A stretch of DNA of 64,000 bases. Origin: Actinomycetota bacterium. GTDB taxonomy: Bacteria > Actinomycetota > Actinomycetes > Streptosporangiales > Streptosporangiaceae. The stretch's first letter is position 1; each line of letters starts with the position of its first letter. The stretch covers positions 1-64,000 of the forward strand of contig DAHVAR010000036.1 in NCBI GenBank assembly GCA_027314515.1, in the 5' to 3' direction. This document shows, in pieces, positions 31,675 through 51,147 of this stretch. The position numbers were made by a program, and so were the translations under genes. Below the pieces are notes generated by a model. That model ran no database searches. It saw only the letters and a program-made list of their open reading frames with translations, and was not told the origin of the DNA.

Positions 31675-32511
31675 CTACCAGGTGACCCGCTGCGGACCGG
31701 TGTAGATGTTCATCGACTCGCCGCGCACGAATCCCGCCAGCGTCAGGCCCGCGTCGTCGGCGAGCTCGGCGGCCAGCGATGACGGGGCGGAGACGGCCGC
31801 CAGCACCGGGATGCCGGCCAGCACAGCCTTCTGCACCAGCTCGAACGAGGCCCGCCCGCTCACCATCAGCACCGTGCGCCGCAACGGCAGCAGCCCGGCT
31901 TGCAGCGCCCAGCCGACGATCTTGTCGACGGCGTTGTGCCTGCCGACGTCCTCCCGCGCCGCCAGCAACTCGCCCGCGCTGCTGAAGAGCCCGGCCGCAT
32001 GCAGCCCGCCGGTCCGGTCGAACACCCGCTGCGCGCCGCGGAGCGCGCCGGGCAGCCCCGCCAGCACGGCCGCGGGCACCCGGAACTGGTCCTCGTCGAG
32101 CCTGTAACGGCCGGGAACGCGCAGTTCGGCGATGCTGGATTTGCCACACACACCGCAGGCGCTGCTGGTCAGGAAGTTGCGGCGCGGGCCGGACGCCAGG
32201 TGAGGCCGCAGCGCCACGTCGGCAATGTTGCCGATCGCGTCGCCGGCCTCGTGGTCGTGGCCGCACTGGCTGCCGTCGCAGATCCTGATCGACTGGATGT
32301 CCCCAGCCGAGCTGATAATGCCCTCGCTGAACAGGAAGCCGGCTGTCAGCTCGATGTCGTCGCCGGGCGTCCGCATGGTCAGGCTGATCGCCTGGCCGGC
32401 GATCCTGATGCCGAGCGGCTCCTCGGCGGCCAGCAGGTCAGCGCGCTCGCTCGCGCCGGGGCCGCCGATGCAGATCCGGGTCACCCGCCTGCGCGCCGTC
32501 CGTCCGGCCAC
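31675..32511 (-). CDS. fdhD: Formate dehydrogenase sulfurtransferase
   Basis: A 278-residue FdhD protein, which passes sulfur from a cysteine desulfurase to the bis-MGD cofactor and is needed for active formate dehydrogenase. Family segments: EEPLGIRIAGQAISLTMRTP, then ELTAGFLFSEGII, the sulfur-carrying TSSACGVCGKSS loop (CxxC), and EDVGRHNAVDKIVG. The GTG at 32511 is chosen because GGAGGAG lies just upstream; the ORF could extend to 32610 but that would run into the fdhA start. It diverges from fdhA across about 90 bp, so both probably share control. Confidence 0.95.
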   Translation of the reverse strand: MAGRTARRRVTRICIGGPGASERADLLAAEEPLGIRIAGQAISLTMRTPGDDIELTAGFLFSEGIISSAGDIQSIRICDGSQCGHDHEAGDAIGNIADVALRPHLASGPRRNFLTSSACGVCGKSSIAELRVPGRYRLDEDQFRVPAAVLAGLPGALRGAQRVFDRTGGLHAAGLFSSAGELLAAREDVGRHNAVDKIVGWALQAGLLPLRRTVLMVSGRASFELVQKAVLAGIPVLAAVSAPSSLAAELADDAGLTLAGFVRGESMNIYTGPQRVTW

Positions 32512-32601
32512 GACTCCTCCGACCTGGTTCCTGTGCTTCTGATCCCAGCCAATACCCTCCCCCCGCTTGCCCTTGCAGGCTATGTCCGTTTGGATAGGAC
32601 G

Positions 32602-35600
32602 GTGCCCCATCCACGTGGCTGGATCGCGAACTGGCCTGCCTACCGGCAGCTGACCGGACGTGACCGGCTGGGCCGGGGTGAGGCGGTCCGGTCACCGCAT
32701 ACCGAGGCGGCGGCCCCGCGCACCCAGGCCGCCGATCGCGTCGTGAGCTCCATCTGCCCGTACTGCGCGGTGGGCTGCGGCCAGCGTGTTTACGTGGCCA
32801 GCGAAGGCGGCCGGGATGCGGTCATCCAGATCGAGGGCGACCCGGACTCGCCGGTGTCGCGCGGCCGCCTGTGCCCGAAGGGCGCCGCGACCAAGCAACT
32901 GGTCACCCAGCCCGGCCGGCTGACGAAGGTGGCCTACCGGCGGCCCTACGGCACCGCCTGGGAGCAGCTGAGCCTGGACCAGGCGATGGACATGATCGCC
33001 GACCGGGTGATCGCCACCAGGAAGGACACCTGGCAGGAGCACCACGGCGGCCAGCGGGTAGCCAGGACCCTCGGCATCGCCAGCCTTGGCGGCGCGACCC
33101 TGGACAATGAGGAGAACTACCTCATCAAGAAGCTGTGGACCGCGCTCGGCGCGATCCAGATCGAGAACCAGGCGCGGATATGACACTCCGCCACCGTTCC
33201 CGGTCTGGGGACTAGCTTCGGCCGCGGCGGCGCCACCACCTTCCCGCGCGACCTCGTCAACTCGGACTGCATCGTCATCTGCGGTTCGAACATGGCCGAG
33301 TGCCATCCGGTCGCGTTCCAGTGGGTCGTGGAGGCCAAGGCCGGCGGCGCCACGGTGATCCACGTCGACCCGCGGTTTACCCGCACCAGCGCGCTGGCGG
33401 ACCTGCACGTGCCCACCAGGGCCGGCGGCGACATCGTGTTCCTCGGCGCGCTGATCAATCACGTGCTGTCCGGCGGGCACGAGTTCACCGAGTACGTCCG
33501 CGCCTACACCAACGCCGCCGACATCCTGCCAGCGGAGTTCACCGACGCGGAGGACGGCGGCGGGCTGTTCTCCGGCTACGACCCGGACACCAGGACCTAC
33601 GACAACTCCAGCTGGCAGCCGACCGGGGAGCGGGACGAGACCCTGCAGCACCCGCGGTGCGTCTTCCAGGTGCTCAAGCGGCATTTCTCCCGGTACACGC
33701 CGGATCTGGTGGAACAGGTCTGCGGGATCGGGCCAGCGGAGTTCGGCAGGGTCGCGGATGCCGTCGTCGCGGCCAGCGGGCGGGAGAAGACGACCGCCTG
33801 GGTGTATGCGGTGGGCTGGACCCAGCACAGCACCGGGGTCCAGCACATCAGGACCGCGTCGATCCTGCAGATGCTGCTCGGCAACATGGGCAGGCCCGGC
33901 GGCGGCATCCTGGCGCTCCGCGGGCACGCGAACATCCAGGGCGCGACCGATGTGCCGACCTTGTTCCACCTGCTCGGCGGCTACCTGCCGATGCCGGGGC
34001 CGGGCGAGGACATGGACACCTACCTGACCCGGATCCCGGATGGCGGTTTCTGGGGCAACAAGCGCAAGTACCTGGTCAGCATGCTGAAGGCCTGGTTCGG
34101 GGACGCGGCGACGGCAGGCAACGACTTCTGCTTCGGCTACCTGCCCAGGATCAGCGGTGATCACGGCACTTACCGCACGACGCTGGACATGATCGACGGC
34201 ACGGTCAAGGGGTTCTTCCTGCTCGGCGAGAACCCAGCCGTCGGGTCGGCGGGCGGCCGGCTGCAGCGGCTGGCGCTGGCCAACCTGGACTGGCTGGTGG
34301 TCAAGGACCTGACCATGATCGAGAGCGCCTCGTTCTGGCGGGACTCACCAGAAGTGGCCGGCGGCGAGCTGGTCACCGAGCGGATCGGGACCGAGGTATT
34401 TCTGCTGCCGGCGGCCGCGCACGTGGAGAAGGCCGGCAGCTTCACCAACACCCAGCGGCTGCTGCAATGGCACGCTAAGGCGCTGGACCCGCCCGGCGAC
34501 GCGCGCAGCGACCTGGCGTTCATCTACGACCTCGGCAACCGGATCCGCGCCCGGCTGGCTGGCTCTGATGACCCGGCCGACCGGCCGGTGCTGGACCTGA
34601 CCTGGGACTACCCGGAAGAGCCCGGCGGCGACCCGTCGGCCGAGGCGGTGCTGGCGGAGCTGAACGGATACGCGGCCGACGGGTCGCCGCTGGCCTCGTT
34701 CGCCCAGCTTGCCGACGACGGCTCGACCAGGTGCGGCAGCTGGATCCACGCGGGCTGCTTCGCCGGCGGGGTGAACCAGACGGCCCGCCGCACGCCGTGG
34801 CAGGAGCAGGACCACGTGGCCCTGGAGTGGGGCTGGGCGTGGCCGGCCAACCGGCGCATCTTGTACAACCGGGCATCGGCCGATCCGGACGGCCGGCCGT
34901 GGAGCGAGGCGAAGGCTTACGTCTGGTGGGACGAGCAGGCGCGCGAGTGGACCGGCCTGGACGTGCCGGACTTCGAGAAGGCCAAACCGCCGGACTACTT
35001 GCCGCCGCCCGGCGCCACCGGCCCGGCGGCGCTGAGCGGCCGCGATCCGTTCATCATGCAGGCAGACGGCAAGGCGGCGATCTTCGTGCCGCGCGGACTG
35101 CAGGACGGGCCGCTTCCCGCGCACTTCGAGGCCGCCGAGTCGCCGCTGCGCAACCGGGTGTACCAGCAGGACAGCAGCCCGGCGTCGATCCAGTACGCTG
35201 GCCGGCGGTCAACCCGCGACCAGGTAGCCGGGCATGACGCCACCTACCCTTACGTGGTGACGACTTACCGGCTGACCGAGCACCATACGGCCGGCGGGAT
35301 GAGCCGGACGCTGTCCAGGCTCGCCGAGCTGCAGCCCGAGCTGTTCTGCGAGGTGTCGCCTGAGCTCGCGGCGGAGCGCGGGCTGGAGAACGGCGGCTGG
35401 GCGACCATCATCACCGCGCGCGCGGCGATCGAGGCCAGGGTGCTGGTGACGCGCAGGCTGCGGCCGGTGCGGATACCTGGCGAGGGCGTCATCCACCAGG
35501 TCGGGCTGCCGTACCACTTCGGCAGCGAGGGCCTGGTGACGGGTGACTCGGTCAACGACCTGCTGCCGCTGGTACTCGACCCGAACGTATTCATCCAGGA

Positions 35601-35727
35601 GAGCAAGGTGGCTACCTGCGACATCAGAGCAGGGCGGCGGCCGACGGGAGCTGCCAGGATGCAGCTGGTGACCTCCTACCGGCACCGGGCAGGGCTGGCT
35701 GACGAAGAACCGCGGCCGGGCACATGA
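32602..35727 (+). CDS. fdhA: Formate dehydrogenase alpha subunit, selenocysteine-containing
   Basis: A 1041-residue molybdopterin (bis-MGD) oxidoreductase oxidising formate to CO2. The N-terminal [4Fe-4S] motif uses Cys52, Cys55, Cys59 and Cys91 (CPYCAVGCG, RLCPKG). Codon 194 is UGA (33181-33183), in the context NQARI-Sec-HSATVPGL, matching the Mo-ligating Sec of FDH-H and FDH-N. A SECIS hairpin follows. Downstream are SNMAECHPVAFQW, NMGRPGGGILALRGHANIQG and a C-terminal MGD-binding domain (YVVTTYRLTEHH). No twin-arginine signal is visible, so it faces the cytoplasm. GTG 32602 follows AGGAC and fits the family N-terminus. The stop overlaps the fdhB start. Automatic annotation is likely to split it at the UGA. 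Confidence 0.96.
33181..33220 (+). promoter_or_regulatory. UGA-Sec codon and SECIS hairpin in fdhA
   Basis: UGA at 33181-33183. Exactly 18 nt later lies a GGTCT apical loop (33202-33206) closed by a 6-bp stem, GTTCCC (33196-33201) with GGGGAC (33207-33212), one pair being U-G. E. coli fdhF has the same GGUCU loop at the same distance, where SelB binds. Confidence 0.93.
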
Positions 35728-36671
35728 CCAGCGACAGCGTGACCAGGGACAGCGTGACCAGCGACAGCGTGACCAGTGCCGGTGGCCCGCGCAACTCGCT
35801 GTACGGGCCGCTCGCCGACGTCGCTGCCGACGCCGGCTACCCCGGCAGTCATCCAGAACGCGTCGGGTTCTTCACCGACACCAGCGTCTGCATCGGCTGC
35901 AAGGCATGCGAGGTGGCCTGCAAGGAGTGGAACGGGCTGCCGGACCCCGAGGCGGGCGCCCTGACGCTGACCGGCATGTCCTATGACAACACCGGTGCGC
36001 TCGGCTCGAACAGCTGGCGTCATGTCGCGTTCATCGAGCAGGCTGTGCCGTCCCCGGCCGATCCGGGAGAACCGGCGCTGATATCCGCGGTCGCCGACGG
36101 TGGCACCACCCGCTGGCTGATGGCGTCCGACGTGTGCAAGCACTGCACGCACGCGGCCTGCCTCGATGTCTGCCCGACGGGCGCCCTGGTGCGCACCGAG
36201 TTCGGCACCGTGATCGTCCAGCCCGACGTGTGCAACGGCTGCGCCTACTGCGTGTCCGCGTGCCCGTTCGGCGTCATCGACCGGCGCGATGGCGACGGGC
36301 GGGCGTGGAAATGCACGATGTGCTACGACCGGCTCCGCGGCGGCCTGGAGCCGGCCTGCGCGAAGGCGTGCCCGACCGATTCCATCCAGTTCGGGCCGCT
36401 CGCCGAGCTGCGCGAGATTGCCAGCGCCCGGCTCGCCGACGTTCAGGCGTCGGGGCATCCGGAGGCCCGCCTGTACGGGGCCGATCCGGCGGACGGCATC
36501 GGCGGCGCCGGGGCGTTCTTCCTGCTGCTCGATGCGCCGGAGGTATACGGCCTGCCGCCGGACCCGGTGGTCACGACCAGGGACCTGCCGGCGATGTGGC
36601 GCTGGGCCGGCACCGCGGCCGCAGTCCTGGCGGCCGGCGTCGCGGTAGCGTTCGCGGGACGGCGCCGATGA
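35724..36671 (+). CDS. fdhB: Formate dehydrogenase iron-sulfur subunit
   Basis: A 315-residue electron-transfer subunit with four Cys clusters: CIGCKACEVACKEW (about 53-66), CKHCTHAACLDVCPTGAL, CNGCAYCVSACPFG and CTMCYDRLRGGLEPACAKACP, for four [4Fe-4S] centres. A single C-terminal transmembrane helix (about 292-311) anchors it. The start overlaps the fdhA stop (ATGA). Residues 2-18 consist of a repeated DSVTS/R unit from three 15-bp DNA repeats (35727-35771), absent from homologues I know. It carries electrons from fdhA to the NrfD-like subunit. Confidence 0.93.
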   Translation: MTSDSVTRDSVTSDSVTSAGGPRNSLYGPLADVAADAGYPGSHPERVGFFTDTSVCIGCKACEVACKEWNGLPDPEAGALTLTGMSYDNTGALGSNSWRHVAFIEQAVPSPADPGEPALISAVADGGTTRWLMASDVCKHCTHAACLDVCPTGALVRTEFGTVIVQPDVCNGCAYCVSACPFGVIDRRDGDGRAWKCTMCYDRLRGGLEPACAKACPTDSIQFGPLAELREIASARLADVQASGHPEARLYGADPADGIGGAGAFFLLLDAPEVYGLPPDPVVTTRDLPAMWRWAGTAAAVLAAGVAVAFAGRRR

Positions 36672-36738: not shown

Positions 36739-37665
36739 GTGACCGAACAGCCGCAGGTGCCGCCGGCCGACTTCCAGTCCTACTACGGCAAGCCCATCCT
36801 GAAGGTCAGCCGGTGGCAGGAGCCGCACCTGCCCGCCTACCTTTTCCTCGGGGAGCTGTCCGGCGCGCTGGCGATGGTCGGTGCCGCCGCGGACGTGACC
36901 GGGCGCCCGTCGCTGGCCCGCGCCGCGCGGCTCGGGGCTGCCGCCGGGGCCTTCGCCGGCGGCGCTTTCCTGACGGCGGAGCTCGGCCGCCCGGAGCGCT
37001 TCCTGAATATGCTGCGGGTGGCGAAGCCGACCTCGCCGATGAGCATGGGGTCGTGGATTCTGGCGACGCACTCTGGCCTGGTGTCGGCGACCGCGGCGAG
37101 TGAGCTGACCGGCCGGCTGGCCAGCCTCGGCAGCGTGGCGGGAGTCGGCTCCGCGCTGACCGGGCCGCTGCTGGCGGCTTATCCGGGCGTGCTGCTGGCG
37201 AACACCGCGGTGCCCGCATGGCACGAGGCGTACCGTCAGCTGCCGCTGCTGTTCACCGGCGGCGCGATGACCGCGGCCGGCGCCGCCGGGCTGGCGGTGA
37301 GCGCGCTGAGCCGCGACCGGGCTGAGTTTGCCGCTGCCGGCCGGCTCGCGTTCATCGGTGCCGCGGTGGAAAGCCTGGCAGGGTACGGGCTGGAGACGAT
37401 GCCGGGCCTGGCGGGCGAGCCGTACCGGACCGGGCCGGGCGGCCGGATGCTGACCGCCGCCAGGTACCTGACGATGGGCGGGGGAGTCGCAGCACTGGCC
37501 GCGCGGCGCAGCAGGACGGCCGCTGCCGTTTCGGCCGCGCTGCTCACCGGCGGAGGCTTGTGCGCCAAGTTCGCGGTCTTGCGAGCGGGGAAGGCCTCCG
37601 CTGCCGATCCGAAGTACGTGGTCGCCAGCCAGCGCGCTGCCCGGCCGGGCAGCCAGGGAGAGTGA
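36739..37665 (+). CDS. NrfD/PsrC-type membrane subunit of formate dehydrogenase
   Basis: A 308-residue integral membrane protein, with about eight hydrophobic segments, of the NrfD/PsrC (polysulfide reductase membrane subunit) family. Landmarks are the N-terminal YYGKPILKVSRWQEPHLPAY, LTAELGRPERFLNMLRVAKP, TSPMSMGSWIL and AVPAWHEAYRQLPLLF. Such subunits hand electrons to menaquinone without haem, unlike FdnI. It lies 67 bp after fdhB, in a GTGACCGGGG-repeat-rich gap (36675-36738), and completes a three-subunit membrane complex. Confidence 0.9.
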   Translation: MTEQPQVPPADFQSYYGKPILKVSRWQEPHLPAYLFLGELSGALAMVGAAADVTGRPSLARAARLGAAAGAFAGGAFLTAELGRPERFLNMLRVAKPTSPMSMGSWILATHSGLVSATAASELTGRLASLGSVAGVGSALTGPLLAAYPGVLLANTAVPAWHEAYRQLPLLFTGGAMTAAGAAGLAVSALSRDRAEFAAAGRLAFIGAAVESLAGYGLETMPGLAGEPYRTGPGGRMLTAARYLTMGGGVAALAARRSRTAAAVSAALLTGGGLCAKFAVLRAGKASAADPKYVVASQRAARPGSQGE

Positions 37666-39134: not shown

Positions 39135-40130
39135 CTAGCGCAGTACCAGCGCGTGCGGCCCCGGCTCGATCAGCTCGCCGATCACCGGCGCGCCGGGAAT
39201 CTCGCCGGCCAGCAGCAGCCCACCGGACGTCTGCGCGTCGGCAAGCAGCAGCAGTGCCTCCTCGCTGAGCCGGCCGAAGTCGCTGTGCGGGGCCACCCAG
39301 GCCAGGTTCCGGCGGCTGCCGCCGGGCACGTAACCGGCCCGGATGGCGTCGGCAGCGCCCTCGATCAGCGGCACCGCGGCACTGTCCACGACGGCGGTGA
39401 CGCCGCTCGCCCTGGCCAGCTTGAACAGGTGACCAAGCAGCCCGAAGCCAGTGACGTCGGTAGCGCACCGGATCCCGGCGGTCAGCGCCGCGCGGCTGGC
39501 CGCATCGTTCAGCGTGGTCATCACCTCGATCGCGGCCGGGAACAGCTCGCCGGTGGCCTTGTGCCGCGAGTTCAGCGCGCCACTGCCGATCGGCTTGGTC
39601 AGCGAGAGCGGCAGGCCTGGCCGCCCGGCATCGATGCGCAGCAGCCGGGCCGGGTCGGCCAGACCGGTGACCGCCATGCCGTACTTCGGCTCTGGGTCGT
39701 CAATGCTGTGGCCGCCCGCCACGTGGCAGCCCGCGGCGCTCGCCACGGCAAGGCCGCCGCTCAGGACCTCCGCCGCCAGCTCTGGGCTGAGCACGTCCCG
39801 CGGCCAGCCGAGCAAGTTGAGCGCGACCAGCGGCTCGCCGCCGACCGCGTAGACATCCGAGAGCGCGTTCGCGGCCGCGATCCGGCCGAACGTGTAAGCG
39901 TCGTCGACCACCGGGGTGAAGAAGTCAGCGGTGGCGACTATCGCGCGGTCTCCGGCGATCCGGACGACGGCCGCGTCATCGCCGTGCTCCACGCCGATGA
40001 GCATGTCGGCGGGCTTGCGCGCCGGGATGAGCCTGGCTACCGCCGCCTCCAGCTCGCCCGGCGGGATCTTGCAGGCGCAGCCGCCGCCGCGGGCGTACTG
40101 GGTGAGCCGGACCGGAGCCAGGGTCGTCAT
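39135..40130 (-). CDS. selD: Selenophosphate synthetase
   Basis: A 331-residue enzyme forming selenophosphate from selenide and ATP, the selenium donor for tRNA-Sec charging. The N-terminal active segment GGGCACKIPPGEL has Cys18/Cys20 and Lys21, so the active residue here is Cys rather than Sec. ATP-grasp-like features follow: EHGDDAAVVRI, GRIAAANALSDVYAVGGEPL, GGHSIDDPEPKYGMAVTGL and CATDVTGFGLLGHL. ATG 40130 is the family start; the ORF extension to 40346 is antisense to the ligase. It lies within the formate dehydrogenase/selenium region. Confidence 0.96.
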   Translation of the reverse strand: MTTLAPVRLTQYARGGGCACKIPPGELEAAVARLIPARKPADMLIGVEHGDDAAVVRIAGDRAIVATADFFTPVVDDAYTFGRIAAANALSDVYAVGGEPLVALNLLGWPRDVLSPELAAEVLSGGLAVASAAGCHVAGGHSIDDPEPKYGMAVTGLADPARLLRIDAGRPGLPLSLTKPIGSGALNSRHKATGELFPAAIEVMTTLNDAASRAALTAGIRCATDVTGFGLLGHLFKLARASGVTAVVDSAAVPLIEGAADAIRAGYVPGGSRRNLAWVAPHSDFGRLSEEALLLLADAQTSGGLLLAGEIPGAPVIGELIEPGPHALVLR

Positions 40131-40248
40131 GCCAAGAACTGTAATCGCTGGCTGGGTTGCGAACGGGGCGCATGCATGGTGCCATGCGGTAGGAGTCCGC
40201 GCCGGGCCGATGCTGGCAGGCGGGCCACGAGGAGCGATGGAGGCTGCA

Positions 40249-42118
<1,870 letters not shown>

Positions 42119-43021: not shown

Positions 43022-43618
43022 TCAGGCGGCAGTGCGGCCTGGCGCAGCCAGCCCTGGCTGGCTGGCCGGGCGGTCGCGTCCCAGCTTGATCAGCCCGGGC
43101 ACGGCCTGCCCGCCTGCCGCCTGCCATGGGGTGATCGCGGGCCTGATGACGACGGCGTCCGGCGTCAGCTGCCGTGGCGCGTCCGGCCACCAGCGGCTGA
43201 CGATGCCGAGCATCCGGTCGTTGGCCGGCAGCACGTCCAGGACGAGCGAGCCGATGCCGCGCCGCGAGGCGCGGCCGATCAGCGTGCGGAGCAGTAGCGT
43301 GCCGAGGCCCTGCTGCTGCCACCGGTCGGCGACGACCAGTCCGACGTTGCTGGCCAGCTCGCCGGTAACCGGCGTGTCCGCGGCCATCCCGTGCGCGATC
43401 ACGGCCCCGTTGCGGTCAGCGATCAGCAGGATGTCAGCACCGGTCCGGCCGCACAGCACGCGCATCAGCCCGGAGCTAGGCGGTGCGGCAGCGGCGAAGA
43501 AGCGCAGGTACTGCGAGCGGGGCGACAGGCCACAGATGAACTCGCGAATGCTGGCCGCGTCGTGCTCGCCGCCCGGCCAGATCAGGCCCACATTGGCATC
43601 CGACGGGGTTCGTTGCAT
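43022..43618 (-). CDS. GNAT-family acetyltransferase
   Basis: A 198-residue GNAT protein. The acetyl-CoA loop is the DRWQQQGLGTLLLRTLIGRA segment (V/I-x-x-x-x-Q/R-x-x-G-x-G type), preceded by NVGLVV on strand 4 and followed by IGSLVLDVLPANDRML. The N-terminus (RSQYLRFFA) resembles domains fused to acetate-CoA ligases and protein lysine acetyltransferases of actinobacteria. The acceptor is unknown. ATG 43618 lies 54 bp from the divergent HxlR gene, so the two may share regulation. Confidence 0.85.
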   Translation of the reverse strand: MQRTPSDANVGLIWPGGEHDAASIREFICGLSPRSQYLRFFAAAAPPSSGLMRVLCGRTGADILLIADRNGAVIAHGMAADTPVTGELASNVGLVVADRWQQQGLGTLLLRTLIGRASRRGIGSLVLDVLPANDRMLGIVSRWWPDAPRQLTPDAVVIRPAITPWQAAGGQAVPGLIKLGRDRPASQPGLAAPGRTAA

Positions 43619-43672
43619 AGACCCAGCTTGTGCTGCCTTGCTAAGTCTGTCAAGTGGACCTAGCCTTCGGGT

Positions 43673-44149
43673 ATGGCAAAGTCCTGGGCGCTGGATTACG
43701 ATCCGGCGACGTGCACTATCGCGGCTGCGCTGGCCGTCGTCGGGGAGAAGTGGACCTTCCTGGTGCTGCGGGAGGCCTTTAACGGCATCCGGAGGTTCGA
43801 CGACATGCAGCGGCGGACCGGCGCGCCCAGGCAGGTGCTGAGCAGCCGGCTCTCCCGGCTGGTAGCCGAGGGCATCCTGGGCAAGGCACCCTACCAGGAG
43901 GCCGGTCAGCGGCTGCGGCACGAATACCGGCTGACCGAGAAGGGGATCGAGCTGTTCCCGGTGATCGCGGCGCTGCTCGCCTGGGGGGACAAGTATGCTG
44001 CCGCGCCTGGCGGCCCGCCCATCGAGCTCACCCACCGTGACTGCGGTGCGCCGGTATTCCTGCAGCTCACCTGCTCTCAGGGTCATGTGCTCGGCACGGC
44101 TCGGGACGTCACGCCGACACCCGGCCCGGGCGCCCGGCGAGTGGCGTGA
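43673..44149 (+). CDS. HxlR-family transcriptional regulator
   Basis: A 158-residue winged-helix regulator of the HxlR type. The N-terminal Cys typical of the family is in PATCTIAAALAVVGEKWTFL (Cys14). Recognition helix and wing: FDDMQRRTGAPRQVLSSRLS, then HEYRLTEKGIELFPVIAALL. The C-terminus has extra Cys residues (HRDCGAPVFLQLTCSQGH) that might sense redox or metal. It diverges from the GNAT gene and is its likely target. Confidence 0.85.
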   Translation: MAKSWALDYDPATCTIAAALAVVGEKWTFLVLREAFNGIRRFDDMQRRTGAPRQVLSSRLSRLVAEGILGKAPYQEAGQRLRHEYRLTEKGIELFPVIAALLAWGDKYAAAPGGPPIELTHRDCGAPVFLQLTCSQGHVLGTARDVTPTPGPGARRVA

Positions 44150-44206
44150 GCACCAGAGTGCGTGACTGACCGCGCACTGCCGGTGCGCCCGGTAGGGTCT
44201 GGTCCC

Positions 44207-44299
44207 GGAGGCGTCAGGGTGCCTGGTGGCCCCCATGGTCTTCAAAACCAGTGGGCGGCGCTCCGCGTCGCCGGCGGGTTCGATTCCCGTCCGCCTCCG
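44207..44299 (+). tRNA. selC: tRNA-Sec (anticodon TCA)
   Basis: A 93-nt tRNA. GGAGGCG (44207-44213) pairs with CGCCTCC (44292-44298); the eighth acceptor pair used in bacterial tRNA-Sec is a T-C mismatch here. The anticodon loop CTTCAAA (44240-44246) has TCA at 44242-44244, reading UGA. The variable arm is very long (about 44252-44273) and the T loop is TTCGATT. No CCA is encoded. It delivers selenocysteine to fdhA with SelA and SelB. Confidence 0.95.
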
Positions 44300-44364
44300 C
44301 TAAGAGCCGCGCGAACTGCCGGGATCGCCGCTGGCCGCAGGCATGACCCGGCGTCCCGTGGCGC

Positions 44365-44985
44365 TCAGCCGCCGGGCGGCGGGTACTGCGCCGTTGTCGT
44401 GTCTGGCGCCGACGGGAACTGCCCGGCTGTCGTGGGGTAATTGGCAGCCGCAACGAACTGCTCCGGCTGGCTCGAGTAGGGGTAGGCGTCCGCTTCCACG
44501 GCTGCGACGTCACGCGCCGCCAGCAACGAGAACCTGCCGATGGCGAGCGCGGCCACGAACACGATCAGCGCGCCGAGCCCGAAGAACAGGGCTGCCCGCG
44601 CCAGGTAGTCCTGCAGGGCGGCCGTCATGTTCGCGCTCTCCAGCGGCTTGCCGATGCTGACCGAGGTGTTCTTCAGCACCGCCTTGACGAACCCGCTGCC
44701 GGCGATGAACCACGCGCCGCCGAGCACGCCGAGTACCGCGCCGGCTATGCCCACCGCGCGGCTTCGCGTGACGAGCATCATGAGCCCGCCGAGCAGCGCT
44801 GCCGCGCCGGGCACAACCGACAAGTACAGCCGGCCGGAGGTGTAGGCCCAGGCCTTATCGGGCGTGAAGCCGAAGTGGTAGTAAGGGCCGGCGAGCGGCG
44901 CCAGGCCGCCCCACAGGCCGAGCAGGATCAGCAACAGGCCGCAGACCGCGCCCCTGCTCCGCGGAATGCTTGCTAGGTCGTTCAT
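44365..44985 (-). CDS. Hypothetical membrane protein
   Basis: A 206-residue protein with four hydrophobic segments (about 13-33, 54-74, 77-97 and 127-150) and a Pro/Tyr/Gln-rich C-terminal tail that should face the cytoplasm. I do not recognise the family. ATG 44985 follows GGAGGGTGAG. It sits between tRNA-Sec and selA, facing away from selA, so the selenium genes are not one transcript here. Confidence 0.75.
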   Translation of the reverse strand: MNDLASIPRSRGAVCGLLLILLGLWGGLAPLAGPYYHFGFTPDKAWAYTSGRLYLSVVPGAAALLGGLMMLVTRSRAVGIAGAVLGVLGGAWFIAGSGFVKAVLKNTSVSIGKPLESANMTAALQDYLARAALFFGLGALIVFVAALAIGRFSLLAARDVAAVEADAYPYSSQPEQFVAAANYPTTAGQFPSAPDTTTAQYPPPGG

Positions 44986-45125
44986 GTCTGCTCACCCTCC
45001 GCGTTATCGGATGCTTAAAGACTTGCACATGCACTGTGCTCTCCGGCGGGCGGCTTGGGCAAAGTGCTGGTAAATCACCCCGTAAGAGCTGTACAGCCCC
45101 TGCCGGCAAGGGCTGGCGGCCAGGT

Positions 45126-46469
45126 ATGGTCGCGCTCGTGGACGTGCGCAGGCTGACCCCGCGTACCGATGCAGTGCTGGCAGATCCGCGACTGGCCGCG
45201 GCGGAGCACCGGCTCGGCCGCGCGATCGTGCTGTCTGCCGTGCGGCGCGCGCAGGATCGCGCCCGGGCCGGCGAGATCGAGCCAGCCGCCGTGCCGGACG
45301 CCGCAGTGGAGAGCTTGCCGTCGCATGCCGCCACGCTGACGCCGGTGATCAACGCGACCGGGGTGCTGCTGCACACCAATCTCGGCCGGGCGCCGCTGTC
45401 GGCAGCTGCCAGAGACGCTCTTCAGGCCGCCGCCGGGAGCACTGACCTGGAGTTCGACCTGGCCTCGGGGCAGCGCGGGCGGCGCGGTCGCGGCATGCTC
45501 AGCGCGCTGTCGGCTGCCGTGCCCGCCGCCGAGGCCGTCCATGTCGTCAACAACAACGCCGCGGCGCTGGTGCTAGCCGCCACGGCGCTGGCGGCCGGCC
45601 GCGAAGTGGTCGTGAGCCGCGGTGAGCTGATCGAGATCGGTGACGGGTTCCGGCTGCCCGATCTGCTGGAATCAACCGGGGCACGGATCCGCGAGGTTGG
45701 CACGACCAACCGGACGACCGCTGCCGACTACGCTGCGGCGATTGGCCCGCAGACCGCCTTCGTGCTCAAGGTGCACCCGTCGAATTACCGGATCGAGGGA
45801 TTCACGGCCAGCGCTTCCATCGCGGAGCTGGCCGCGCTGAGCGTGCCGGTCATCGGCGACATCGGCTCGGGCTTGCTGACTCCGCACCCGCTGCTGCCGG
45901 CGGAGCCGGACGCCAGCAGCTGGCTCACGGCCGGGGCGGCGGTTGTCACCGCCAGCGGCGACAAGCTGCTCGGCGGCCCGCAGGCTGGCCTGCTGGCCGG
46001 CCGGGCTGACCTGATCGCCCGGCTCGCCCGGCACCCGCTGGCCAGGGCGCTGCGCGTCGACAAGCTGACGGCCGCGGCCCTGGAGGCAACGCTGACCGGG
46101 CCGCGGTCGCCGGTGGCCGAGCAGCTCGCCGCGCCGCAGGCAGAGCTAGCCGGGCGGGCTGACCTGATCGCCGACGCGCTCGCTGCCGTGGGCATCGATG
46201 CGCGCGCTCAGGGCTGCGAGGCTGCGGTTGGCGGCGGCGGCGCACCCGGAGTCAGCCTGCCGAGCGCGGCCGTCAGCTTGCCGGCCGAGCTTGCGGCAGA
46301 GCTGCGGTCTGGCCTGGCGGTGCGCCGGGGCGCGATGCCGGCCGTCGTCGGCCGGATCGAGGACGGGCGGTTGCTGCTCGATCTGCGCGCGATCAGCCCG
46401 GCTGACGACCAGCGCCTCACTGCGGCGGTACGGTCGGCCGCCGCGGCGGACCCGGCTGCGGCGGGCTGA
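45126..46469 (+). CDS. selA: L-seryl-tRNA(Sec) selenium transferase
   Basis: A 447-residue PLP enzyme converting seryl-tRNA-Sec to selenocysteyl-tRNA-Sec with selenophosphate. Landmarks: INATGVLLHTNLGRAPL, NNNAAALVLAATALA, SRGELIEIGDGFRLPDLL, VGTTNRTTAADY and the PLP lysine in SGDKLLGGPQAG (Lys280). ATG 45126 has only a weak ribosome site; a GTG at 45138 is an alternative. It is 26 bp before the SelB start (5 bp to an earlier ATG), so the two form an operon. The 140-bp upstream gap holds its promoter. Confidence 0.95.
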   Translation: MVALVDVRRLTPRTDAVLADPRLAAAEHRLGRAIVLSAVRRAQDRARAGEIEPAAVPDAAVESLPSHAATLTPVINATGVLLHTNLGRAPLSAAARDALQAAAGSTDLEFDLASGQRGRRGRGMLSALSAAVPAAEAVHVVNNNAAALVLAATALAAGREVVVSRGELIEIGDGFRLPDLLESTGARIREVGTTNRTTAADYAAAIGPQTAFVLKVHPSNYRIEGFTASASIAELAALSVPVIGDIGSGLLTPHPLLPAEPDASSWLTAGAAVVTASGDKLLGGPQAGLLAGRADLIARLARHPLARALRVDKLTAAALEATLTGPRSPVAEQLAAPQAELAGRADLIADALAAVGIDARAQGCEAAVGGGGAPGVSLPSAAVSLPAELAAELRSGLAVRRGAMPAVVGRIEDGRLLLDLRAISPADDQRLTAAVRSAAAADPAAAG

Positions 46470-46495
46470 TCGCGATGGAATCCAGGGCCCGCGCC

Positions 46496-48583
46496 ATGCA
46501 TGTCGTCGTCACTGCCGGACACGTCGACCACGGAAAGTCTGCGCTGATCCGCGCCCTCACCGGGATGGAGCCGGATCGGTGGGCCGAGGAACAGCGCCGC
46601 GGCATGACGATCGACCTCGGTTTCGGCTGGCTGACGCTGCCCTCCGGCGACCGGCTGGCTTTCGTCGACGTCCCCGGCCACGAGCGGTTCGTGACCAACA
46701 TGCTGGCTGGCGCGGGCCCGGTGCCGGCCGTGATGTTCGTGGTGGCGGCCGACGAGGGCTGGATGCCGCAGTCCGCCGAGCATCTGGCCGTGGTGGCCGC
46801 GCTCGGCATCAGGCGCGGCGTGCTAGCCGTCACCAAGAGCGATCTGGCCGACCCGGGGCCTGCGATCAGCCAGGCGACCGCTCAGATCGCGCAGACGGCC
46901 CTCGGCAAGCTGCCGGCGATCGCGGTCAGCTCGGTAACCGGGGCAGGACTTGCCGAACTGGCCGAGGCGCTGTGCGAGCTGTGCCGCAGCCTGCCCGAGC
47001 CCGATCCCGGCGCGCCGGTGCGGATCTGGATCGACCGCGTCTTCAGCATGACCGGCAGCGGGACGGTCGTGACTGGCACCCTTCCGGCCGGCTCCGTGCA
47101 CCGGGGTGACGAGCTGGTGATCACGCCGTCGATGCGCCCAGTACGGGTGCGAGACCTGCAGTCACTCGGGGAGACGGCACAGGCCGCCGAGGGAGTGGCG
47201 CGCGTGGCGCTCAACTTGCGCGGCATCGGGCGGGACTCGCTGCATCGCGGCATGGCGCTCGTGCAGGCCGGCCGCTGGACCCTTACCGACCTGATCGACG
47301 TCCGGCTGAGCGTGCCGGCTGGCAGTTCCGTGCCGGCTGGCAGTTCCGTGCCGCCGGGCAGCCCCGTGCCGCCGGGCAGCCCGGTGCCGCCGGGCAGCCC
47401 CGCCGGGCCTGGCCAGCTGGCGAGATCGGTGGCCGTGCACGTAGGCTCCGCCCGCGTCGTTGCCCGGGTGCGGCCGCTTGGCGCGGGATTGGCCAGGCTC
47501 AGCCTGGCGGACGCATTGCCACTGCACGTCGGCGACCGGATCCTGCTGCGCGATCCTGGCAGTCGCCGTACCGGCTCGTTTCCGGCGGTGGCCGGCGCGG
47601 TCGTCCTCGATGTGGCGCCGCCGTCGCTCGGTCGCCGTGGTGCCGCCGCCGCTGCGGCGCGGATGCTGTCGGGCTGGCCCGACCGGCCGGGAGCCGCCGA
47701 GTTGCTCGCCCGGCACGGGATCATGCGGGCCAGCACGCTGCTTGCCATGGGCGTGTCGGATCACCCGGTGCCGGTGGCGGGCGAGTGGCTTGCCGATCCC
47801 GGCCACTGGCGTGCACTCGGTCACCAGCTCGGCGAAGTGCTCGCGAACCATGCGGCCGCCGAGCCGCTGGCCGCGGGAATGCCGGTCGACGCCGCCAGGG
47901 CAGCGCTGGAACTGCCCGACCGAAAGCTGGTGCTCGCGCTTGCCAAGCCGCCGTTCCGGGTCACTGGCGGAGCCCTGCACATAGGACGGCCGGCCGGCCA
48001 GGATGCCGGCCCGGAACTCCCCGAGGCGGTTCGCGCGGCGGTGCGGGTGCTTCGCGCCGACCTGGCCGCGGCCCCGTTCCTGTCACCGGACGCGGACCGG
48101 CTGCGCAAGCTCGGGCTCGACGCGCGCAGCATCGCCGCCGCAGTGCGGGCCGGGGAGCTGATGCGCGTCAGCGACCAGGTCGTGCTCGCCCCTGGCGCTG
48201 ACGTGCTCGCCAGCGAGCTGCTGGCCCGGCTGCCGCAGCCGTTCACGGCGGCAGAGGCCAGGCAGGCGCTCGATAGCACCAGGCGCACCGCCATCCCGCT
48301 GCTGGAGTACCTGGACTCGGCGGGAATCACGCAGCGACTGCCAGACGACCGGCGAGTGCTGGTCAGCAGGCCCGCGCATGCCGGAGATCCGGCCGTCAGC
48401 GGTGCGGCTGCCAGCCCGGTCGCCGCCAGCCTGACCGGCGGAGCTGGCACCGGCGCGAGTCGCACCAGCATTACCACGGCAGACCTGACGGTCAGCGGCG
48501 GGCACGGCCCCAGCAGGCCCGCGGCCGGGGTGGCCGCCGGCCGGACAGACACCGGCACGGCCGGTTCCGCGTCCGGCCCGTGA
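46496..48583 (+). CDS. selB: Selenocysteine-specific elongation factor
   Basis: A 695-residue GTPase that carries Sec-tRNA to UGA codons marked by a SECIS hairpin. The G domain has TAGHVDHGKS (P loop), RGMTIDLGF (switch I), DVPGHE and TKSDL. Beta-barrel domains follow, and the C-terminal half holds the winged-helix repeats that bind the SECIS (PFLSPDADRLRKLGLDARSI and PFTAAEARQALDSTRRTAIP). Odd features: residues 273-302 are five copies of VPxGSx, and about 70 Ala/Gly/Thr-rich residues are added at the C-terminus. The ATG at 46475 is an alternative start; homologues begin at MHVVVTAGHVDHGKS. Confidence 0.95.
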   Translation: MHVVVTAGHVDHGKSALIRALTGMEPDRWAEEQRRGMTIDLGFGWLTLPSGDRLAFVDVPGHERFVTNMLAGAGPVPAVMFVVAADEGWMPQSAEHLAVVAALGIRRGVLAVTKSDLADPGPAISQATAQIAQTALGKLPAIAVSSVTGAGLAELAEALCELCRSLPEPDPGAPVRIWIDRVFSMTGSGTVVTGTLPAGSVHRGDELVITPSMRPVRVRDLQSLGETAQAAEGVARVALNLRGIGRDSLHRGMALVQAGRWTLTDLIDVRLSVPAGSSVPAGSSVPPGSPVPPGSPVPPGSPAGPGQLARSVAVHVGSARVVARVRPLGAGLARLSLADALPLHVGDRILLRDPGSRRTGSFPAVAGAVVLDVAPPSLGRRGAAAAAARMLSGWPDRPGAAELLARHGIMRASTLLAMGVSDHPVPVAGEWLADPGHWRALGHQLGEVLANHAAAEPLAAGMPVDAARAALELPDRKLVLALAKPPFRVTGGALHIGRPAGQDAGPELPEAVRAAVRVLRADLAAAPFLSPDADRLRKLGLDARSIAAAVRAGELMRVSDQVVLAPGADVLASELLARLPQPFTAAEARQALDSTRRTAIPLLEYLDSAGITQRLPDDRRVLVSRPAHAGDPAVSGAAASPVAASLTGGAGTGASRTSITTADLTVSGGHGPSRPAAGVAAGRTDTGTAGSASGP
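47312..47401 (+). repeat. 18-bp tandem repeat inside selB
   Basis: Five in-frame 18-bp units starting GTGCCGGCTGGC or GTGCCGCCGGGC, encoding VPAGSS twice and VPPGSP three times. The change from AGSS to PGSP between units 2 and 3 shows stepwise duplication. It lies in the barrel region of SelB, in a loop. Confidence 0.95.
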
Positions 48584-49736: not shown

Positions 49737-50157
49737 GGGCTCATCCTGGTGATCCGGTCCTGAGCGACCCGGCCGGCTGGCCGGCCTGCTGATGTTCCGC
49801 AGGCGCCCGCGCGCAGGAGCCAGCGAGTGAATCGTAGGCGAACACCCGGCCCTGCCGCGATCTCCGCCGCGCGGCGTGGCCAGGGTGGCCGGGCAGCTGG
49901 CCTGAGTGAGGCCGCGCGCCGGCGCCTCCGGTGGCCGGCATCGGCCTGGTACGACCGCGGCCGGCCGGCCGGACTGGCGCCGGATACCCCGTTCCCGTCA
50001 TGATCTTCCCTGGACGGGAAGTTACGGCGCTCCGCCGTTGCTGCAGTAGCCAGCGCGCCTGCCGCGCCCCGGGCGGCGCTTATGGTGGAGCTCGCTGCCG
50101 CGGCCGGGACGGCGGCGACGCAGGCTGGATCAGGCGGAGATGCAAGGAGGTGCAGGG
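49737..50157. other. 421-bp gap upstream of moaA without a gene
   Basis: Very GC-rich with several GGCCGGCC-type inverted repeats and a 6-bp hairpin CTTCCC/GGGAAG at 50005-50021. A strong ribosome site AGGAGG lies at the right end. It must contain the moaA promoter, and a molybdenum-cofactor riboswitch would be expected in such a place, but I cannot fit one by eye. Confidence 0.6.
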
Positions 50158-51147
50158 ATGCTGATCGACTCGTACGGGCGGACAGCCACCGACCTCCGGG
50201 TGTCGCTCACGGACCGGTGCAACCTGCGGTGCGCGTACTGCATGCCCGCCGAGGGCCTGGATTGGCTGCCCAAGCCGGAACTGCTGACCGATGACGAGCT
50301 AGTCCGGCTGATCGCGCTAGCGGTGACCCGGCTGGGCATTACCGCGGTCCGGTTCACCGGGGGCGAGCCGCTGCTGCGCCGCGGCCTGCCGGTCGTCATC
50401 GAGCAGGTGGCTGCCCTGCGGCCGCGGCCCGAGATCTCGCTGACTACGAACGGCATCGGACTCGAGCGGCTTGCCGGGCCGCTGCACGCAGCCGGGCTTG
50501 ATCGTGTCAACGTCTCGCTCGACACGCTGTCGGCCGAGGTGTTCCTGCAGCTCACCCGCCGTGACCGGCTCGCTGACGTGCTGGCCGGACTGGCCGGGGC
50601 GGCCGAGGCCGGACTCGCGCCGGTAAAGGTCAACGCGGTGCTGATGCGCGGCGTCAACGACAGCGAAGCGCCGGCGTTGCTGCGGTTCTGCCTGGCCAGG
50701 GGCTATCAGCTGAGGTTCATCGAGCAGATGCCGCTGGACGCCCAGCACGGCTGGCGGCGCGAGCAGATGGTGACCGCCGATGAGATCCTTGCCGCGTTGC
50801 GTGCGGAGTTCTGCCTGACACCGGCCGACCCGGCGGAGCGCGGATCCGCTCCGGCGGAGAAGTTCCTGGTGGACGGCGGCCCCGAGATAGTCGGCGTGAT
50901 CGGGTCGGTGACCCGCCCGTTCTGCGGAGCCTGCGACCGGGTCCGGCTGACGGCCGACGGGCAGCTGCGGAATTGCCTGTTCGCAAAGGACGAGAGCGAC
51001 CTGCGGAGCCCGTTGCGAGCCGGTGCGTCCGATGACGAGCTCGCGGCTCGGTGGGAGCGCTGCGTCGCGGCTAAACTGCCAGGTCACGGCATCAATGAGA
51101 TCGGCTTCCTGCAGCCTGCGAGGCCGATGTCCGCTATTGGCGGCTGA
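50158..51147 (+). CDS. moaA: GTP 3',8-cyclase (MoaA)
   Basis: A 329-residue radical SAM enzyme making 3',8-cyclo-GTP, the first step of molybdenum cofactor synthesis. The N-terminal cluster is TDRCNLRCAYCMP (CxxxCxxC, about 19-31), RFTGGEPLLRR binds SAM, and the C-terminal cluster is FCGACDRVRLTADGQLRNCL. The usual terminal Gly-Gly occurs (SAIGG). ATG 50158 follows AGGAGG at 8 bp. The cofactor is needed by the FDH encoded 14 kb upstream. It is followed 16 bp later by mobA. Confidence 0.95.
   Translation: MLIDSYGRTATDLRVSLTDRCNLRCAYCMPAEGLDWLPKPELLTDDELVRLIALAVTRLGITAVRFTGGEPLLRRGLPVVIEQVAALRPRPEISLTTNGIGLERLAGPLHAAGLDRVNVSLDTLSAEVFLQLTRRDRLADVLAGLAGAAEAGLAPVKVNAVLMRGVNDSEAPALLRFCLARGYQLRFIEQMPLDAQHGWRREQMVTADEILAALRAEFCLTPADPAERGSAPAEKFLVDGGPEIVGVIGSVTRPFCGACDRVRLTADGQLRNCLFAKDESDLRSPLRAGASDDELAARWERCVAAKLPGHGINEIGFLQPARPMSAIGG

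Follow-up and report, generated by a model that had tools for sequence, protein, structure and literature searches.

The locus described here raises a simple question. Is fdhA, whose coding region is interrupted by an in-frame UGA, a single gene in which that UGA is read as selenocysteine (Sec), or does translation end there? The locus lies in a stretch of 64,000 nucleotides (the window) from contig DAHVAR010000036.1 of an Actinomycetota bacterium of the family Streptosporangiaceae. It is nearly certain (probability about 0.98) that fdhA is one gene in which UGA 194 is read as Sec by means of a hairpin and SelB, and that it serves formate oxidation. The first-pass annotation had read it as one gene with Sec at the UGA and a hairpin after it, and its reading is supported. 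Those of its proposed checks that sequence analysis could carry out favoured it, except that the Rfam models make no call.

Reading frame and family of fdhA

The segments 32602-33183 and 33184-35727 had been proposed to form one gene, and indeed they share a single frame joined by the UGA at codon 194.

32602..35727, + strand: fdhA, catalytic subunit of a selenocysteine formate dehydrogenase (1,041 codons from the GTG start to the terminal TGA)
33181..33183, + strand: UGA Sec codon, residue 194 of fdhA (translation, codon comparison with relatives)

Translated from 32602 to 35727, the frame meets just two stops, the TGA of codon 194 (33181-33183) and the one that ends the gene. The read-through protein is homologous to formate dehydrogenase alpha subunits over its whole length: it gives a full-length match to NF041513, the NCBIfam model of actinobacterial formate dehydrogenases (formate_DH_Act), with 1,761 bits (cut-off 1,400) and scores 911 bits against TIGR01553 (formate dehydrogenase-N alpha; cut-off 814). 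The product has Molybdop_Fe4S4, Molybdopterin and dinucleotide-binding Molydop_binding domains. The GTG start at 32602 and the TTGGAT-rGGAC-like motif preceding it are kept in several relatives.

The two halves of the gene were also compared with those of five relatives (about 75-77% identity). For the halves on either side of the UGA, dN was 0.15-0.20 and 0.17-0.19, and dS was 0.54-0.84 and 0.58-0.70. The likeness of these values on the two sides argues that each half is maintained as protein in a shared frame.

In the mechanical ORF list, the downstream ORF begins at ATG 33292 and not at 33184. The expectation that standard annotation would report a truncated gene plus an orphan holds only in part, since NCBI has a model made for this family, NF041513. 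Most of the relatives found have UGA or UAG at the Sec site of fdhA. In the genome search with NF041513 the match in the window's genus was split in two at about residue 340, with profile positions 335-375 unmatched.

The codon at residue 194 in related loci

The sequence QIENQARI precedes the UGA and HSATVPGLGT follows it, and the site aligns with that of Sec formate dehydrogenases, as the flanks had suggested on first inspection. The UGA of E. coli fdhF shares the alignment column of codon 194. The nearest solved structures are Sec formate dehydrogenases as well (e.g. 8cm4), with the active-site residue in this column.

Which codons occur here in relatives? In the tblastn alignment of named actinobacterial loci (the top 80 among 591 confirmed matches) the codon is TGA in 64/80, TAG in 16/80 and a sense codon in 0/80. 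Thirty later loci, taken as the best matches from 120 relatives' genomes, have TGA in 10 cases and Cys in 20 (18 TGC, 2 TGT); over all 51 later loci the counts are 31 TGA (one being E. coli fdhF), 18 TGC and 2 TGT. The first-pass annotation had named a sense codon other than Cys in relatives as evidence against its reading; every stop-free full-length locus sampled has Cys (20/20). The stop stands at an active-site position occupied by Cys in the sense homologues, as a recoded stop does. Another genome of the window's genus has a 97% identical copy (L115) with the same stop at the same residue.

A second subfamily, about 40-43% identical, is represented by L128, L129 and L130 in the relatives G073, G033 and G028. 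Its members have UGA at the same site, flanked as EQQARV-U-HGPTV, and their AGUUU loop stands as far from the UGA as the loop of fdhA does; the NF041513 search did not find this subfamily in the window's genome. Three genomes (G011, G013, G068) hold stop-free and UGA full-length forms of fdhA together, possibly as isoenzymes for selenium-poor and selenium-rich conditions.

The hairpin after the UGA

33196..33212, + strand: bSECIS-like hairpin (6-bp stem, 33196-33201 with 33207-33212; loop GGUCU, 33202-33206)

Bacterial SECIS elements carry a GU-containing loop about 16-37 nt after the codon. The hairpin had been placed 18 nt past the UGA; that distance holds for the start of the GGUCU loop, while the stem begins at 12 nt. 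The likeness in spacing to E. coli fdhF was confirmed on the E. coli K-12 sequence, with 18 nt from UGA to GGUCU in both genes.

Evidence for the hairpin is weak from the window alone and strong across relatives. Within the window, a 42-nt stretch folds into the hairpin; the minimum-energy fold of 51 nt is a different one, no more stable than its shuffles (z 0.09). When synonymous codons were drawn according to the gene's own usage, the stem and loop arose by chance in 0.85% of draws. The covariance-model search for bSECIS, recommended as a check, found no Rfam family at its gathering score, the nearest being SECIS_3 with 15.9 bits against 63. Such a match is not strictly a defining feature of bacterial SECIS.

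Among relatives, the stem has its six pairs and the loop reads RGUYU in 106/106 rows with a stop codon (90 TGA, 16 TAG, window included), and the hairpin is present in 0/21 Cys rows. Of the latter, 20 are true Cys homologues; the other is L003, a paralogue of another subfamily from the window's own genome, which is excluded from the set of 20. The count leaves out L001 and L002 (own copies, one of which served as the window row), L120 (located where L004 is), L119 (the same gene as L113), L114 (E. coli) and L128-L130 (the other subfamily). Where two rows were identical over their 190-nt context (four pairs), both were retained for counting and one was removed for the tree.

The third stem pair links two synonymous third-codon positions. 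It is CG in 69 rows, TA in 14, TG in 13, GT in 9 and GC in 1, and is broken in 0/106. On the tree (FastTree, 122 rows, site columns excluded) the type of this pair changes 18 times without passing through a broken state. RNAalifold, applied to 51 sequences out of 94 distinct stop forms (93 and the window), predicts exactly this hairpin, and its covariation score in the same alignment was matched by 0/500 shuffles.

The Cys forms occupy one side of one branch of the tree. The Sec/Cys label changes once, so that the difference in hairpin between Sec and Cys forms is one evolutionary event and the 106 and 20 rows do not amount to 126 independent events. The structure is a covarying GU-loop hairpin shortly past the codon, with the loop at 18 nt, and we take it for a bacterial SECIS-like element with predicted SelB binding.

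Constraint on the residues after the Sec site

What does the hairpin demand of the protein? After the Sec, all Sec rows have Pro (CCC only), Gly or Ser (GGT or AGT only), Leu and Gly. The Pro is encoded by CCC in 106/106 Sec rows, and in Cys rows its place is taken by Ala, Val, Ser or Thr; codon choice at the residues after the site is freer in the Cys forms. This contrast in loop residues also counts as one event, because there is one change on the tree. We see about even odds that in this clade several residues of the active-site loop are set by the RNA signal rather than by the enzyme, the Sec machinery of this genome being perhaps kept for one codon. So strict a constraint on codons and residues after the Sec site is not stated in the extracts of related papers considered here. 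The three forms of this gene, with UGA, UAG or Cys, make a tidy natural experiment on the demands of a hairpin on protein sequence.

Sec-decoding genes and neighbours in the window

The genes selA, selB, selC and selD, which together make up the Sec-decoding trait, are all present within 16 kb.

39135..40346, - strand: selD, selenide water dikinase (TIGR00476, 369 bits; start uncertain)
44207..44300, + strand: selC, tRNA-Sec with anticodon UCA (ARAGORN; RF01852, 72.5 bits, gathering 47)
44970..46469, + strand: selA, selenocysteine synthase (TIGR00474, 434 bits; family match from near 45156)
46475..48583, + strand: selB, Sec-specific elongation factor (TIGR00475, 280 bits; SelB-wing_3, Beta-barrel_SelB)

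Read by eye, selD is a Cys form (GGGCACK). The selB product has a winged-helix domain at its C-terminus. A GNAT acetyltransferase ORF (window 43022-44245, - strand) overlaps selC with its upstream end, and the real start of this ORF probably lies further inward.

Genes related to formate oxidation and the molybdenum cofactor were found as well.

31675..32610, - strand: fdhD, sulfurtransferase on which formate dehydrogenase activity depends (NF001943, 325 bits)
35724..36671, + strand: fdhB-like iron-sulphur subunit (TIGR01582, 169 bits, under the cut-off of 334.7)
36739..37665, + strand: NrfD-type membrane subunit (PF03916)
50140..51147, + strand: moaA, molybdenum cofactor synthesis (TIGR02666, 365 bits)

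The fdhB-like gene overlaps the end of fdhA in an ATGA. For fdhD the family match begins at residue 38, and the true start is probably further in.

Codon, anticodon and tRNA-Sec in relatives

With ARAGORN, tRNA-Sec was found near 31/80 of the named loci, each time with the anticodon UCA and beside a TGA form. The anticodon is CUA in 5/5 of the UAG-form genomes tested (the UAG loci number 16). Sec codon and tRNA-Sec anticodon thus switch together, UGA with UCA and UAG with CUA. Sequence can hardly come closer to proving decoding than by this joint change. One UAG form (L046) belongs to a MAG labelled only as Frankiales (isolate RYN_115), whose tRNA-Sec is CUA.

We also counted co-occurrence over 120 genomes, the window's own included. 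A tRNA-Sec above 60 bits is present in 38/39 genomes with a full-length TGA fdhA versus 4/17 with only stop-free full-length fdhA. In G097 (L127, G097:C279), which has a TGA fdhA and selB, tRNA-Sec was not found even in a more sensitive search, perhaps owing to an assembly gap. The L127 hairpin resembles those of the UAG group. Strong tRNA-Sec with no full-length fdhA match occurs in 20/120 relatives' genomes, which may be incomplete assemblies or have other selenoproteins.

Other selenoproteins in the genome

Is fdhA the only gene served by this machinery? In the 5.86-Mb assembly the model of the FdhA hairpin found only fdhA (81.7 bits; next 20.0, E 0.55). The model is specific to this family, so that selenoproteins with other hairpins may exist. 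A loose UGA-plus-loop pattern gave 67 hits in the genome versus 31 in the reversed control; among the 30 of these 67 taken as loci, only fdhA has at least 4 stem pairs and is also flanked on either side by a long open frame. A search of the genome for the UGSC selenoprotein family found no member, which says little because no control genome gave a match either.

Proposed decoding and alternative readings

We propose the following scheme. At UGA 194 the downstream hairpin would hold SelB carrying Sec-tRNA(UCA), and Sec would be inserted instead of termination; SelD would supply selenophosphate and SelA would make Sec on the selC tRNA. The selenium of Sec194 would be a ligand of a Mo or W bis-pterin centre, where FdhA would oxidise formate to CO2, the electrons passing over iron-sulphur clusters to two partner subunits, one FdhB-like and the other an NrfD-type membrane protein, and probably on to the quinone pool. 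What can be read in the DNA is one frame, a conserved site, a covarying hairpin, complete sel genes and, in relatives, covariation of codon and anticodon. Actual Sec insertion, the metal, the catalytic direction and the electron acceptor we infer, insertion and chemistry from the family.

The UGA could also be a genuine stop in a gene broken by mutation or by an assembly or sequencing error. An in-frame stop taken alone and the two pieces in the mechanical ORF list speak for this, but the same stop stands at the same residue in 64/80 relatives (best 80 of 591) and in the 97% identical copy of the same genus, and selection is purifying on both sides. Conservation refutes a pseudogene, and we give a broken gene hardly any credence. 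Still less probable is a general reassignment of UGA in the organism, for example to Trp or Gly. We found no support for it and rejected it on three grounds: fdhA itself ends in a TGA that overlaps the fdhB start, a UCA tRNA-Sec and all sel genes are present, and the sense replacements are Cys.

A less remote reading accepts the recoding but makes it inefficient or regulated, so that a product of 193 residues has its own role or a second protein starts at ATG 33292. Competition with the release factor is well known in Sec recoding, and a downstream ORF with an ATG does exist. Against this, the sequence does not ask for either product, and ATG 33292 lies inside the molybdopterin domain and its product would be without the iron-sulphur domain and residue 194. 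We consider this unlikely and prefer read-through of the UGA as Sec to give one full-length FdhA.

Comparison with known systems

The E. coli FdhF resembles the protein studied here in the UGA-encoded Sec at the aligned residue and in the GGUCU loop at identical spacing, but differs in its low identity (about 25% over the aligned part). The E. coli FdnG (1kqf) is among the close solved Sec formate dehydrogenases, and its site is aligned too. FdnG is exported by Tat; no Tat signal was seen by eye in the window's FdhA.

Closer systems are known from actinobacteria. In Streptomyces incarnatus a Sec formate dehydrogenase-O was described in 2015, together with its SECIS and a selABCD cluster close by (PMC4498112, in extract). 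The likeness lies in the in-frame UGA followed by SECIS and in selA, selB, selC and selD near the gene; it is another organism, however, likened by the published description and not by sequence. For Geodermatophilaceae, UAG-coded Sec formate dehydrogenases with a CUA tRNA-Sec are mentioned in an extract of PMC5330540, citing Mukai et al. 2016. These have the homologous gene with the same site and hairpin, but combine UAG with tRNA-Sec CUA where the window has UGA with UCA. According to extracts of PMC1794560 and PMC5029168, no bacterial selenoprotein is more widespread than FdhA, and fdhA lies close to sel genes.

The Sec formate dehydrogenase system is thus already known, and the finding at this locus is right but ordinary, since these sources, as far as the extracts go, have the same system in Streptomyces and UAG versions in Geodermatophilaceae. 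It sets right how a further actinobacterial selenoprotein gene is annotated, and the bacterium of the window is probably able to use formate by way of a selenium enzyme.
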